A stretch of DNA of 39,535 bases from positions 1 through 39,535 of the forward strand of contig PBBA01000009.1 in the NCBI GenBank assembly GCA_002716405.1, read 5' to 3'. Below the pieces are notes generated by a model, which saw nothing but the letters and a program-made list of their open reading frames with translations, was not told the DNA's origin and did not search any database. This document shows positions 1-8,469 of this stretch, in pieces. Within the stretch, counting starts at the first letter, position 1. Each line of letters begins with the position of its first letter. The position numbers were made by a program, and so were the translations under genes. The DNA is from Chloroflexota bacterium (GTDB lineage: Bacteria > Chloroflexota > Dehalococcoidia > UBA2979).

Positions 1-1770
1 GAAGTAAATCAAGGTCCTGCGCAAACTGACCTCTTTGCCTTTGGTCCAATGATGCCACCTGATGGACAACCTGGCCCTGCCGGCCAACCTGGCCCTGTTG
101 GACAACCTGGCCCTGGTGGACCTGATGGAATACCTAATGCAGGACAACCTGGTCTATCTCAACAACTTGGACAAGCGGCTCCTGCAATGAACTTCTCGGA
201 TTTCTTCTTCGGTTCAACTCCAGCGGAACCAGGACCTGACGGACGAACTGGACCTGGTGGACCTGGTGGGGAATTTGGACCTGGTGCTCCAAGTCAAGCC
301 CCTGGGCCTGGACCTGACGGACAATCTGGACCTGGGCCTGGTGCTCCACCACCTATGGATTTCGGACCACGAGGATTTTTCTTTGATGCATCTGTACCTC
401 CTACCGGTGCTCCTGGACCTGACGGACAATCTGGACCTGGACCTGGTGGACCTGATGGAATTCCTAATGCAGGACAACCTGGTCTATCACAAGGTGCCTT
501 ACCTCCATCAACAACAGGCAATGCCCCTGCGGGTGGACTTTTCTCATTATTTATGACTCCTCCTACCGGTGTTCCTGGACCTGACGGACAATCTGGACCG
601 GGACCTGGCAGTCCTGGCGATACTCCTCCTGGCGGACAATTCGGCCCTGCCGGCCAACCTGGGCCTGGTGGACAACCTGGACCTGCTGGACAACCCGGCC
701 CTGGCGGACAACCTGAACAAGGATTTGATGCAAAAGACTTCTTCTTCGGTGGAGGAATGACTGAAGGTCCTGCGCAAACTGACCTCTTTGCCTTTGGTCC
801 AATGATGCCACCTGATGGACAACCTGGCCCTGCCGGCCAACCTGGCCCTGTTGGACAACCTGGCCCTGCTGGACAACCTGGCCCTGGTGGACCTGATGGA
901 ATACCTAATGCAGGACAACCTGGACCTGTAATGAATTTCTCGGATTTCTTCTTCGGTTCAACTCCTGCGGAACCAGGACCCAATGGACAGCCTGGTGGAC
1001 CTGACCGACAGCCTGGTGGGCCTGACGGACAGCCTGGTGGACCTGACGGACAGCCTGGTGGACCTGATGGACAGCCTAGTGGACCTGATGGACAGCCTGG
1101 AAATGCACCAACTGACAGTGGACCACGAGGATTTTTCTTTGATGCATCTGCGCAACCCGACCCTGGTGGACCAGACGGCCAACCTAGTGGACCTGACGGC
1201 CAACCTGGACAACCTCAAGGGGCTTTACCTCCTCCAACAACAGAGGGTGAAACTACGGGTGGATTGTTCTCATTATTCTCTTCTCCACCATCTGATGGAG
1301 AGTCTGACTCTGGTGGACAACCTGGACCTGGTGGACAACCTGGACCTGGTGGACAACCCGGCCCTGGCGGACAACCTGAACAAGGATTTGATGCAAAAGA
1401 ATTCTTCTTTGGTGGCGGTAAAGACGCTGAAGACGGTCAATCTGACGGTCAACCTACATCGGATTCTAACGATGAAAGTCAACCTGACGTAACCCCACCT
1501 GAGAATGTTGGGGGAGGTTTCGTCAATCCTAATGAACAAACTGCACCATCTGAAGCACCACCTTCAGCTGGTGGATTTGTCGCTCCAACAAGCGGACCTA
1601 CTCCTGAAAATGTTGAAGGCGTAGGCGTAGCCCCTGAAAATATTCGTGGTGGTTTCGTCAACCCAACTAACCAACAAGGATCCGAGGGTTCACCCTCTAA
1701 GCCTAAACCTAATGCAGGTGGATTCTTTGGTGGTACAGGTAATTCGGGTATACCCATTGGTTCTTCGTAG
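1..1770 (+). CDS. Collagen-like Gly/Pro/Gln repeat protein with Phe-rich islands (5' end outside window)
   Basis: The reading frame is open from base 1 and the first residues (EVNQGPAQTDLFAFGPMM) match an internal repeat, so the gene begins upstream; 589 residues are visible. Two super-repeats of about 250 residues (bases 13-765 and 766-1430) are made of collagen-like Gly-X-Y triplets (GQPGPA, GPDGQS) interrupted by five fixed Phe-rich islands: DLFAFGPMM, MNFSDFFFGS, GPRGFFFDAS, GGLFSLF and FDAKDFFFGGG. The last ~110 residues carry shorter GGFVNP/GGFVAP/GGFFGG motifs. There are no cysteines and no membrane segment in the visible part; a signal peptide, if any, lies outside. I recognise no catalytic domain. 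A secreted or surface structural or adhesive protein is the best guess (inference). Base composition is clearly more GC-rich than the neighbours, which the Gly/Pro codons explain. Confidence 0.85.
   Translation, partial: EVNQGPAQTDLFAFGPMMPPDGQPGPAGQPGPVGQPGPGGPDGIPNAGQPGLSQQLGQAAPAMNFSDFFFGSTPAEPGPDGRTGPGGPGGEFGPGAPSQAPGPGPDGQSGPGPGAPPPMDFGPRGFFFDASVPPTGAPGPDGQSGPGPGGPDGIPNAGQPGLSQGALPPSTTGNAPAGGLFSLFMTPPTGVPGPDGQSGPGPGSPGDTPPGGQFGPAGQPGPGGQPGPAGQPGPGGQPEQGFDAKDFFFGGGMTEGPAQTDLFAFGPMMPPDGQPGPAGQPGPVGQPGPAGQPGPGGPDGIPNAGQPGPVMNFSDFFFGSTPAEPGPNGQPGGPDRQPGGPDGQPGGPDGQPGGPDGQPSGPDGQPGNAPTDSGPRGFFFDASAQPDPGGPDGQPSGPDGQPGQPQGALPPPTTEGETTGGLFSLFSSPPSDGESDSGGQPGPGGQPGPGGQPGPGGQPEQGFDAKEFFFGGGKDAEDGQSDGQPTSDSNDESQPDVTPPENVGGGFVNPNEQTAPSEAPPSAGGFVAPTSGPTPENVEGVGVAPENIRGGFVNPTNQQGSEGSPSKPKPNAGGFFGGTGNSGIPIGSS
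982..1101 (+). repeat. 21-bp minisatellite coding for (GQPGGPD)n
   Basis: About five to six consecutive units encode the heptapeptide GQPGGPD with minor changes (RQPGGPD, GQPSGPD). A 7-residue period breaks the strict Gly-X-Y triplet register found in the rest of the gene. The near-identical units suggest recent slippage. Confidence 0.8.
1312..1377 (+). repeat. 18-bp repeats coding for GGQPGP
   Basis: Three to four near-identical 18-bp units (ggacaacctggacctggt and variants) encode GGQPGP. They form the spacer just before the last FDAKEFFFGGG island. Confidence 0.75.
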
Positions 1771-1843: not shown

Positions 1844-3502
1844 ATGGAACTCTCTACTCGAAAACAATCAATTACAGCTTCGCAAGGAATAGTGACTTCA
1901 AATCACCCAGTTGCTTCCTCTGTAGGGGTTTCTATTCTTGCATCTGGCGGTAACGCATTTGATGCAGCTGTTGGTACGGCGTTCACTTTATCAGTTGTTG
2001 AACCTATGATGGTGGGCCCTTTTGGAGGTGGATTTACAAATTTTTACCAACCAAATGAAGGATTTTCGACAATCGATGGATATATATGTGCGCCTGGTGC
2101 AGCTCACGAAGCAATGTATCAACCATTGAGTAATGAACTTAAAGATTACTTCGATGTTCAAGATAAACTTAATGAAACAGGTTATCTTGCAGTTGGAACC
2201 CCTGGGAATTTAATGGTCTGGGCGCACCTCGTTGAGGAATATGGTAATTTTTCACTGGATGAAGTTATTCAACCTGCTATTAATATTGCTAAAAACGGTT
2301 TTCGAGTCACAGATTATCTTTCAAATCTTATTCGTGACAATCTTTCAGAATTATCACTGCATAAAGAGAGTGCCCAGATATATTTGAAAAATGGGCATGC
2401 CCCTGCACGTGGCGATATTATTAAGAATCCAAATTACGCACAGACGCTCGAAGGTATTGCAAAGCACGGCGCTGCATATTTGTATGGAGGAGAATTAGGT
2501 CAGCATATTGAAGATGAAATGAGTAAAAATGGTGGAATTCTGACACTCGATGACTTAAAAAAGCAACAAATTCTGTACCGTGAACCTATCGTCGGTAATT
2601 ACCGTGGTTATGATATCCATTCTGTTGGACCAGTGAGTAGTGGTGGTATTTGTCTCGTGCAAATGCTGAATATTCTAGAAAATTTTGAAATTGATAAATA
2701 TGAAATTACTGATTCAGAGAGAGTTCATATTATTTCTGAAGTTTTCAAAATTGTTTTTGCTGATCGATATGAATATATTGGTGATCCCGAATATGTTGAT
2801 ATTCCAATCGATGCTCTGCTCTCAAAAAAATATGCATTACAACGAGCACAGTCAATCAATTTAGATCATGCTCAAAACTATGAATTCACTCGTGAATTCC
2901 CAGAAAATGAAAGTAATAATACAACACATTTTAATGTTGCCGATGCTGAAGGAAACATAGTGTCAATGACTCAGACAATCAACAGTGCCTTCGGAAGTAA
3001 AGTCGCTGTCGATGGAACAGGTATGCTTCTAAATAACTGTATGATGCTATTTGATCCCCATACTGGTAATGCAAATTCGATACAGCCATATAAACGTAGC
3101 CTTTCATCGATGACACCTACGATAATTTTTAAGGATGATAAACCATTCCTCGTATTGGGAACTCCAGGTGGACGTAAAATTTTTGGTGCCGTATGCCAAG
3201 CATTACTTGCATTGATCGATACGGGGCTGAGTTTACAAGCTGCTGTCGAATCTCCTCGTGTATGGACTGATGGTGATGTTATAGAACTTGAATATGAATT
3301 TTCTGACAATGTGCATACTGAACTAAAATCGCGTGGACATGATCCAGTTAGTGTTGATCGTGTGGCTGGTGGGATGAATGCAATAAAATTTGAACATAAC
3401 ATCATAGAAGGTGCTGCTTGTCACCGAGCTGATGGCTCTCCTGTAGGACTTGGCGGAGGGTATGCCTTGCCATCACAGCCAGGTGATGCTTTCAGGGTCT
3501 AA
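1844..3502 (+). CDS. Gamma-glutamyltransferase family protein
   Basis: This is an Ntn-hydrolase of the gamma-glutamyltransferase family, which cleaves gamma-glutamyl bonds (glutathione and related compounds) or transfers the glutamyl group. At 552 residues it has normal length. Family landmarks are present: SGGNAFDAAV near 34-43, GPFGGGF near 58, SSGGICLVQMLNILENF near 265-281, then the self-cleavage site NNTTHF with the predicted nucleophile Thr360, which becomes the N-terminus of the small subunit. LSSMTPTI and GTPGGRKI follow. Unlike the Escherichia coli periplasmic enzyme, no signal peptide precedes the catalytic domain, so a cytoplasmic location is likely. The gene stands alone on the plus strand, 73 bp after the repeat protein, and converges with the next gene. 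Substrate is not certain: this family also contains cephalosporin acylases. Confidence 0.93.
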   Translation: MELSTRKQSITASQGIVTSNHPVASSVGVSILASGGNAFDAAVGTAFTLSVVEPMMVGPFGGGFTNFYQPNEGFSTIDGYICAPGAAHEAMYQPLSNELKDYFDVQDKLNETGYLAVGTPGNLMVWAHLVEEYGNFSLDEVIQPAINIAKNGFRVTDYLSNLIRDNLSELSLHKESAQIYLKNGHAPARGDIIKNPNYAQTLEGIAKHGAAYLYGGELGQHIEDEMSKNGGILTLDDLKKQQILYREPIVGNYRGYDIHSVGPVSSGGICLVQMLNILENFEIDKYEITDSERVHIISEVFKIVFADRYEYIGDPEYVDIPIDALLSKKYALQRAQSINLDHAQNYEFTREFPENESNNTTHFNVADAEGNIVSMTQTINSAFGSKVAVDGTGMLLNNCMMLFDPHTGNANSIQPYKRSLSSMTPTIIFKDDKPFLVLGTPGGRKIFGAVCQALLALIDTGLSLQAAVESPRVWTDGDVIELEYEFSDNVHTELKSRGHDPVSVDRVAGGMNAIKFEHNIIEGAACHRADGSPVGLGGGYALPSQPGDAFRV

Positions 3503-3533: not shown

Positions 3534-4553
3534 TTAATTACGTGAATGGGAAAGTAACCATTGTATGTGCTCAGGTGTGTTATATATTTCCTTCCAATTA
3601 CCATGTCCTCCACCTTGGATGCTCGTAAAACGTATCTTTGAATTATATTTTCCTAAGGCAGATACCATTTCAACGGCCATGGCATAAGAAGAGACCATAT
3701 CAGTATCTCCATGAAATATCCAAATAGGGATATTGTTAAGTTCGGGTGCTAAATCTACATAAGAATAAGGTGCATGATGGCTTGATAAAGGCATGATTGC
3801 TGCAAAAGTATTTTCTAAATGAGATGCGACTATATAAGTGCCTCTCCCTCCCATGCTCAAACCAGTTAAGTATATCCGATTTTGATCTATCCGTAGATTT
3901 TCCTGTGCCATTATGATGATATCTTCTATTTTTTTCGGATTCCAATCGATTTCATTTTTTACTGGTGCGATCACAATATAAGGTTCTTCTTGTTGCTGGA
4001 AAAAATCTTTAATCCTTCCTTGGACATTACTGATAGAACCATCAATACCGCCATGTAGGAAAAGCACTAATGGATAATTTCTAGAACTTTCAGAATATGA
4101 AGGAGGAATTTTTATAACAAAATCATAACCTTGCCTTAATCCCACTTCGACTTTTTCAGCATATTCTTGGATAAGTTGATCTGGGATTGAAGGACTATTC
4201 AATTTTTCTGAAAGTTCCTTTTCGATCATTAATTGTATTAAGATTTCCCAGATCGGATCTGTTTCGTATTCAACTTGTGATAATTCCTTTTCAACTAGCC
4301 ATCCATTATTAAAATCTTGCCAAATAGAATTTGTGAGATTGGTAGCTTTTGATGCTATTGGAGTTGTAGGTGAATTCATAGTTGTAGAGATTGTTGGAGT
4401 TGGTAGCGGATTTATATTTTTTGTATCTATGCTAGTTGGCGAAGAAGTTGGAGTTAATTCTGCTACTGAGGAAGAATTTTCGAATGATGTTTGTGAATTA
4501 CAGGCAATTGCCAAGGATAAAAATGATGCAATGAACGGTATCAAATATCGCAT
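3534..4553 (-). CDS. Alpha/beta-hydrolase lipoprotein (esterase/depolymerase-like)
   Basis: The 339-residue protein begins with a lipoprotein signal (MRYLIPFIAS... with LAIAC, lipidated Cys18), followed by a Ser/Thr/Pro-rich linker to about residue 70 and a helical segment to 140. The catalytic part at 141-339 has the oxyanion FLHGG (165-169), the nucleophile elbow GLSMG (Ser233), Asp283 in IFHGDTD and His317 in GGGHGNW, the complete triad of the esterase D/PHB-depolymerase-like hydrolases (also prolyl-oligopeptidase-like). It should sit anchored outside the cytoplasmic membrane and hydrolyse an ester, possibly a polyester or acylated sugar; the substrate cannot be read from sequence. The start is fixed by the signal peptide. 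No Shine-Dalgarno is seen, but TATAAT lies 6 nt upstream. Confidence 0.88.
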   Translation of the reverse strand: MRYLIPFIASFLSLAIACNSQTSFENSSSVAELTPTSSPTSIDTKNINPLPTPTISTTMNSPTTPIASKATNLTNSIWQDFNNGWLVEKELSQVEYETDPIWEILIQLMIEKELSEKLNSPSIPDQLIQEYAEKVEVGLRQGYDFVIKIPPSYSESSRNYPLVLFLHGGIDGSISNVQGRIKDFFQQQEEPYIVIAPVKNEIDWNPKKIEDIIIMAQENLRIDQNRIYLTGLSMGGRGTYIVASHLENTFAAIMPLSSHHAPYSYVDLAPELNNIPIWIFHGDTDMVSSYAMAVEMVSALGKYNSKIRFTSIQGGGHGNWKEIYNTPEHIQWLLSHSRN

Positions 4554-7113: not shown

Positions 7114-8469
7114 TTACACATAATCTGAATTAATTGTCAGAAGTACATAAGCTTCGGCAATCATATTTCGCTTTAACTCTGTGAGATCTTGGCTTTCATC
7201 AGGTCCATGGATGCGACTTATAGGATCGCCAACTCCTGTAATGAGTATTTCGCAATCAGGATAATTATTTTGTATTTCTGCAACTAATGGAATTGTTCCT
7301 CCTAATCCAATTTTACGAGGTACTTTACCCCATGCGTGCTGAACACCTTTTTCATAAGCTAACATTAATTTTCCGGCCTGTTGAGATTCGAAAGGGCTAG
7401 CAGTAGCACCTCTAATTACCTTCACAGATGCACCCCACGGAGGAGATGTAGTGAGATGTGTTTCTAATGCATCCAGTGCTTCAACTGAATTTTGTCCTGG
7501 TGCAATACGCATACTAATTTTTGCACTTGCTTCAGGGACTATAAGATTGATGGCTTCATCCATAGAGGGTGCGTTAATTACTAATACTGAGATTGCAGGT
7601 TGTGACCATGTTCGTGAAATTACATCGCCTGCTCCGATCGTTTCCAATGAAGGTAAAGCACCAGCTTTTTCTAACATTTCACTGTCCTGAATCAGAATTT
7701 CATTTGTTTGGTTACTGACCAACCCTTCAACTGCTACAGTACCATCGTCATTATGCAGAGAAGTAATAATTCTTGATAAAGCCATTAATGCATCAGGTAC
7801 GATTCCACCATATTCTCCCGAATGAACTCCCAGTTCTAAAGTTTTTACTATAATTTCACAATCCACTAATCCACGAAGTGAAGTAGTAATTGCTGGATCA
7901 TCAACTCCCCAATGAGTTGAATCAGCAATAATGACATAATCAGCCTTAAGTAAATTTTTATATTTTGTGAGGAATTGTGCAGCGTGTGGTGAACCTAATT
8001 CTTCCTCACCTTCGATAATTACTTTTACATGACAAGATAAAGTAGAACCATTAGAAAATATGGATTGAAGTGCTCCAAGATGTGTAATTATTCCTGATTT
8101 ATCATCACTTGCACCACGGCCAAAAATTCGATTCTTTCTGATGCTTGTTTCAAACGGCCCAGATGTCCAATTTGATAAATCACCAGTTGGTTGTACATCA
8201 TAATGTGAATATAAAAGAATGGTTGGAGCATTAGGATCCTTGTGTAAAAATTCTGCATATACTGCATCAGGCGCTTCATCGATCTCTAATAATTGAACGT
8301 TAGCTCCTAAATTTTCAAATTGCTGAGCTACGAGGGTTCGACAATTTTCCATCCCTTCGGTATGGGGGCCTTCCAAGCTTATTGATTTTGCCTCGACTAA
8401 CATTGTTAAAACATTGATCAATTGTTCAAATATGGAATCATCAATTTCGATAAATGGATTGTCTGACAT
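7114..8469 (-). CDS. M20 family dipeptidase (CNDP/ArgE-DapE type metallopeptidase)
   Basis: A 451-residue di-zinc hydrolase. Metal-site motifs are SHYDVQP (His89, Asp91), GRGASDDKSG (bridging Asp near 122), EGEEELGS (general base and ligand glutamates near 155-156), IADSTHWG and a C-terminal SRIHGPDE histidine. The GVHSGEYGG segment belongs to the inserted dimerisation (lid) domain. Such enzymes remove C-terminal residues from dipeptides or deacylate amino acids. No signal peptide is seen, so it is cytoplasmic. It is the second gene of a minus-strand pair, 21 bp after the NHL-propeller gene, with a GAGGT ribosome site before the ATG at 8469. Confidence 0.93.
   Translation of the reverse strand: MSDNPFIEIDDSIFEQLINVLTMLVEAKSISLEGPHTEGMENCRTLVAQQFENLGANVQLLEIDEAPDAVYAEFLHKDPNAPTILLYSHYDVQPTGDLSNWTSGPFETSIRKNRIFGRGASDDKSGIITHLGALQSIFSNGSTLSCHVKVIIEGEEELGSPHAAQFLTKYKNLLKADYVIIADSTHWGVDDPAITTSLRGLVDCEIIVKTLELGVHSGEYGGIVPDALMALSRIITSLHNDDGTVAVEGLVSNQTNEILIQDSEMLEKAGALPSLETIGAGDVISRTWSQPAISVLVINAPSMDEAINLIVPEASAKISMRIAPGQNSVEALDALETHLTTSPPWGASVKVIRGATASPFESQQAGKLMLAYEKGVQHAWGKVPRKIGLGGTIPLVAEIQNNYPDCEILITGVGDPISRIHGPDESQDLTELKRNMIAEAYVLLTINSDYV

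Follow-up and report, generated by a model that had tools for sequence, protein, structure and literature searches.

The open reading frame at the start of the analysed stretch of DNA (the window, 39,535 nucleotides, which is the entire contig G000:C6 of a 1.3 Mb genome that is 84.5% complete) encodes the C-terminal part of a protein in which five distinct Phe-rich islands recur in a fixed order between hydrophilic Gly/Pro/Gln spacers. Comparison with relatives supports the existence of the family, its secretion and the order of the islands. We further infer self-association of the islands, binding to a co-encoded lipoprotein, anchoring at the surface and a function as a coat. The complete reading, to which we assign about even weight, is that of a Sec-secreted, disordered sticker-and-spacer polymer which, together with a surface lipoprotein encoded beside it, would form a cohesive coat or gel. 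No curated family covers either the polymer or its lipoprotein partner, and distinct stickers that are kept in a fixed order and conserved between genera are unusual for a disordered protein.

Islands and spacers in the window and its sister species

The window ORF is open at its 5′ end, and all five islands listed in the earlier note are found in it twice, in identical order, followed by a tail that had gone undescribed (Table 1). The 38 Phe residues, which are the only aromatic ones (there is no Trp, Tyr, His or Cys), are concentrated in the islands, 8–57 residues apart; Lys and Arg are scarce (5 of each), and the pI is about 4.05. This composition, together with a low-confidence AlphaFold2 model (mean pLDDT 42, no structural elements), which as a single-sequence prediction is a weak indication, suggests that the protein is disordered. 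The GC content of positions 1–1770 is 54.6%, compared with 38.9% for the remainder of the window, as expected from the Gly and Pro codons.

Table 1. Coordinates in the window of the repeat gene, its parts and the adjacent gene
Feature	Position	Strand	Remarks
Sticker-spacer protein gene, 3′ part	1–1770	+	589 aa; 5′ end lost to contig start; stop codon 1768–1770
Unit 1	28–756	+	five islands, DLFAFGPMM to FDAKDFFFGGG
Unit 2	781–1419	+	five islands, DLFAFGPMM to FDAKEFFFGGG; last unit, conserved in sister contig L006
Island 1, DLFAFGPMM	28–54 (unit 1), 781–807 (unit 2)	+	
Island 2, NFSDFFFGS	190–216 (unit 1), 934–960 (unit 2)	+	
Island 3, RGFFFDAS	370–393 (unit 1), 1126–1149 (unit 2)	+	
Island 4, GGLFSLF	532–552 (unit 1), 1258–1278 (unit 2)	+	
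Island 5	724–756 (unit 1), 1387–1419 (unit 2)	+	FDAKDFFFGGG (unit 1), FDAKEFFFGGG (unit 2)
C-terminal tail	1420–1767	+	last 116 residues; GGFV 1513–1524, 1570–1581, 1648–1659; GGFF 1717–1728 (all within residues 505–576)
Gamma-glutamyltranspeptidase (neighbour, not counted as part)	1844–3502	+	order same in sister contig L006

Searches of Pfam and NCBIfam with the repeat protein gave no match above cutoff, so that the repeat is not accounted for by a known domain, and searches of viral contigs, phages, PDB and relatives with the whole protein recovered the sister species alone, along with weak compositional matches. One of the latter is a short collagen-like GPQGPTGQAG linker directly after the lipobox cysteine of a cytochrome-like lipoprotein (L004:787–1755, minus strand, genome G043). 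A search with the tail alone likewise matched only in sister species, and searches of open-licence papers brought up no description of such a protein.

The earlier note had called the two units nearly identical at the DNA level. This holds for the islands (45 codons identical, 8 synonymous, 1 changed) and fails in the spacers, where 80 codons are identical, 27 synonymous and 40 changed, with 56 gap positions. The same asymmetry appears in the comparison with a close relative of the window contig, L006 (PANZ01000008.1, 'Chloroflexi bacterium SAT228', apparently the same contig as G001:C8), which also starts inside the sticker-spacer gene and whose last unit and tail align end to end with those of the window. 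With the islands delimited as in the earlier note, 47 island codons are identical, 7 differ synonymously and 1 non-synonymously, with no gaps; the corresponding counts for the spacers are 131, 43 and 27, and 13 positions are gapped. Randomly placed blocks of matching lengths carry a mean of 8.5 changes versus the single one observed in the islands (P = 0.002), a result that, at the level of sequence comparison, supports stronger selection on the islands than on the spacers. A Fisher test restricted to the synonymous and non-synonymous counts, islands against spacers, did not reach significance (P = 0.25), the changed sites being few and the numbers small. Moreover, the penultimate unit of L006 carries FDAKDFFFGGG and the last one FDAKEFFFGGG, matching units 1 and 2 of the window, respectively; thus, the duplication is older than the split between the species, and both copies have kept their islands.

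A full-length homologue in another genus

The complete gene, including its N-terminus, was recovered from G035, a genome of another genus in the same family as the window, where whole-protein searches had missed it and only the lipoprotein led to it. It occupies L143:969–3635 on the minus strand (ATG at 3635, stop at 969; 888 aa), starts some 35 nt after the lipoprotein gene and encodes a putative signal peptide (MIHIRVRRRTWRRLWQVALVLGLLTIFAGYAGTAMTYAQ), a PPPGGQPGG spacer, three five-island units and three GGFFAGT repeats that run to the end. The islands are NNNLNFFGGG, GFGGLFTGP, GDFRGFLPAG, GLFGLF and DARAFFFGGG in unit 1; LNFFGGG, FSGFFFPG, GDFRGFLPAG, GLFSLF and DAKAFFFGGG in unit 2; and NFGSG, FTWNGFTSIPAEG, PDRGFLPPP, GLFSLF and DGRSFFFGGGG in unit 3. 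The putative signal peptides of this homologue (P0002) and of the 5′ part in the sister genomes G001 and G002 were read by eye, the window itself having lost its N-terminus; the signal-peptide-like start supports the suggestion that the protein is secreted or exposed at the surface. A search of plasmids with the G035 protein returned no match.

Among the 120 possible permutations, the island order of the window scores best against G035 (443, the next being 432), and shuffling within units gives P = 1e-4, with the proviso that the 15 islands of G035 were picked by eye before scoring, a choice that favours a match. Islands 2, 4 and 5 have clear counterparts and contribute most of the signal, and islands 1 and 3 are weak individually. 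The sticker-and-spacer design proposed from the window alone thus extends to a second genus, in which islands are present and ordered while the spacers vary. A third genus, represented by G012, offers two pieces that probably belong to one gene: a putative signal peptide followed by repeats at the end of contig C7, and ARNFFFGGG, two GFFGGT and one GGFFAGT motifs up to the stop codon at the start of C11. The last island and the tail therefore recur in this genus. The tail of the window protein is the counterpart of these terminal GGFFAGT and GFFGGT motifs in G035 and G012. In G120, the 3′ part was not found at contig starts.

The homologue also bears on the description of the protein as collagen-like, which we do not retain. 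On that reading, the protein would form short triple helices with hydrophobic breaks between them, and Gly-X-Y runs of 6 to 10 triplets do occur in the window, as they do similarly in L006. However, the score of the window protein with Pfam Collagen (PF01391) is 16.1 bits against a cutoff of 27.2, in unit 2 spacers with a period of 7 (GGPDGQP) disrupt the triplet phase, and the G035 protein, for which Pfam Collagen is not among the matches listed, is nearly devoid of Gly-X-Y, with at most 6 triplets in a row, so that the islands are conserved where Gly-X-Y is not. The bacterial proteins of this kind (Scl1/Scl2, BclA type) resemble the present one in having Gly/Pro-rich repeats behind a signal peptide and a probable surface location, but Scl proteins contain 50 and 79 Gly-X-Y repeats (PMC8968730), compared with no more than 10 in succession in the window. 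We therefore consider a collagen fold very improbable.

The lipoprotein partner and the breaks behind it

Homologues of the lipoprotein were detected in 27 of the 393 genomes of the class. Their alignment has two invariant cysteines, one invariant Trp and two invariant Phe, and a profile built from it found nothing convincing in PDB or Pfam, where it has no family. A contig end lies within 620 nt on the 3′ side of the lipoprotein gene in 19 of 28 loci, as opposed to 2 of 28 on the 5′ side and 1.2 expected per side (binomial 2.6e-20 for the 3′ excess, with the caveat that related genomes are not independent). The sequence that is left behind the lipoprotein gene usually codes for an N-terminus resembling a signal peptide and for the first part of a repeat; at a few loci the neighbour is unrelated. 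Because assemblies across the class break at this very point, the family has escaped annotation. These breaks expose a systematic blind spot, namely long repeat genes missing from short-read genomes, which can be detected through the conserved neighbour, as this gene mostly lies next to a contig end. One of the lipoproteins (L072:278–1057, minus strand) contains stretches, DFSDFGF and SFFYF, that resemble the island NFSDFFFGS, possibly by chance.

Different genomes carry different genes upstream of the pair (PAC2, TrkH, malic enzyme, histidine kinase, DNA ligase), which indicates that the lipoprotein gene and the repeat gene are the conserved unit. These neighbourhoods are also relevant to the possibility that the protein is a precursor of several small peptides, with the islands as cores. 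Short conserved cores repeated within disordered spacers would fit such a precursor, as would the gamma-glutamyltranspeptidase gene that adjoins the repeat gene in the window's genus. However, no maturation genes lie beside the pair in the relatives checked, nor is there a conserved one among the upstream neighbours examined; the islands are of five kinds and are not flanked by dibasic or any other constant cleavage sites; and the C-terminus carries the tail motifs. Of all the readings weighed here, we give this one the least credence. The accompanying statement that protease genes are absent from the vicinity is only loosely right, given that just 73 nt separate the repeat gene from the gamma-glutamyltranspeptidase gene downstream and that a gene for an M20 peptidase lies at position 7114.

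In families other than that of the window, the gene behind the lipoprotein encodes FDPNAVGGFNADQFAN (helical-screw-like), DKAREFV-type, Q-rich or NMEGDNFKEMGG repeats, and these proteins share with the window protein only their position, a signal-peptide-like start and repetitiveness. The 16-residue FDPNAVGGFNADQFAN repeats behind the lipoprotein at L154 and L155 (G319) are a candidate for a natural helical-screw repeat. The occurrence of other repeats implies that, in those families, the islands are not needed for the role of the pair. Indeed, very different long repeats in this position across the class, some of them probably folded as a helical screw, look as if length alone mattered. The protein might accordingly be a passive extended stalk or shield for which length and flexibility suffice, the islands being remnants or minor packing elements. 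The strong conservation of the islands relative to the spacers and the retention of their order across genera speak against such a stalk, which we consider improbable. A bolder extension, which we put forward tentatively and expect is more probably wrong than right, is that Dehalococcoidia-like bacteria share a two-gene envelope system across the class, in which a conserved lipoprotein and a fast-evolving secreted repeat polymer would make up the elastic layer of a peptidoglycan-free cell, and which would have been overlooked since the repeats break nearly all short-read assemblies at this point. The polymer would then consist of ordered Phe islands in the window's family and of helical-screw-like repeats in others.

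No contig in the window's genus carries both the 5′ and the 3′ part of the repeat gene. In two sister species, a putative signal peptide begins 24–25 nt after the lipoprotein gene and leads into GPPDM repeats, within which the contig ends. At the start of G001:C7, on the minus strand, 84 codons beginning 24 nt behind the lipoprotein gene encode MQMNTNRLQKSLRSQIVMFAMLVSILFSLVSPAIVSA and then QMGPPDMGPPDM repeats; G002:C48 starts with the same arrangement (..SPAIVSA-QMGPPDMGPPDM in both) and breaks at the same repeat. The G001:C7 start is the only outward-reading Gly/Pro-rich frame among the G001 contig ends examined (all contig starts and the ends of all contigs except C8, with the C13 end read separately). 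From the architecture of G035 and by elimination, the 5′ and 3′ pieces probably constitute one gene. The first 12 kb of the sister's lipoprotein-bearing contig have no match in G000, which we take as incompleteness of that genome rather than gene loss. An ORF at the C12 end of G000 (ECF sigma factor and membrane protein) was rejected as the 5′ part, as the sister's ORF ends normally and another gene then follows. Synteny was of no help either: pdxA and the luciferase-like gene lie on separate contigs in the nearest other genus, neither of them near a Gly/Pro-rich gene.

Two further observations concern contig ends in this genus. Many contigs of G000 (L010–L016, L035–L040) end inside low-complexity lipoprotein linkers (PTPTPT, GSAS, DADP, VVPPIPT, AVTTQAP). 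Linkers of this type therefore seem to be common in this genome and to break its assembly. At the C13 end of G001, genes for an ECF sigma factor and for a single-pass membrane protein are followed on their 3′ side by the start of a long secreted protein (L058:2910–3779), Ig-like or S-layer-like in sequence, that continues past the locus and is a candidate S-layer protein.

A putative cohesive coat and comparable systems

The preferred reading may be spelled out as follows. The polymer, whose gene lies directly 3′ of that for the lipoprotein with two invariant cysteines, would be exported with its five islands present in two or more ordered repeats and with its GGF(F/V) end. Outside the cell, the islands would bind each other, and perhaps the lipoprotein, as weak and only partly specific stickers, and the lipoprotein would tether the chains at the membrane. 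A cell that has no outer membrane, and probably no peptidoglycan either, would thereby be enclosed in a cohesive and elastic coat or gel. Judging from the record of L006 and from genome kinship, the window's genome is probably a SAR202-like member of the Dehalococcoidia. Isolates of SAR202 are monoderm, do not encode peptidoglycan synthesis and have a layer outside the membrane (PMC10444878), and the loss of peptidoglycan preceded the marine radiation of Dehalococcoidia (PMC10284905). The polymer is a concrete candidate for what gives cohesion to the envelope of peptidoglycan-free marine Chloroflexota, an abundant group in the ocean.

Counting against a gel, the islands are unlike each other and their order is retained, neither of which generic stickers would require. 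These properties favour a docking scaffold, in which every island serves as a short linear motif that specifically recognises its own partner, be it the lipoprotein or another surface protein; the chain would then be an ordered multivalent platform and not a self-associating gel. The islands are nearly letter-identical between species and ordered between genera while the spacers turn over, and a conserved lipoprotein is co-encoded. However, one chemistry, Phe with Gly or Asp, is common to all islands in a protein devoid of other aromatic residues, and the lipoprotein also adjoins repeat proteins without islands. We regard docking as the strongest competitor of the coat, albeit a clearly less probable one.

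Several known systems offer parallels to the proposed polymer. HeliScrew4 (PDB 9zem) matches the 16-residue repeats of a lipoprotein-linked protein from another family (L155, E = 1.4e-7) but not the window protein, and thus concerns the distant variants only. FG-repeat nucleoporins, with their FG, GLFG and FxFG motifs, are similar in that Phe stickers next to Gly recur at regular intervals along a hydrophilic, disordered chain, whereas the window protein is bacterial and secreted and has five distinct islands in a fixed order; homology between the two was not detected. In elastin-, resilin- and flagelliform-silk-like chains, hydrophobic and Gly/Pro-rich segments alternate as they do here, and GPGGQ resembles the GPGGX of such chains; no sequence relation to them was found, however, and the islands of this bacterial, lipoprotein-linked protein are Phe-rich and heterogeneous.
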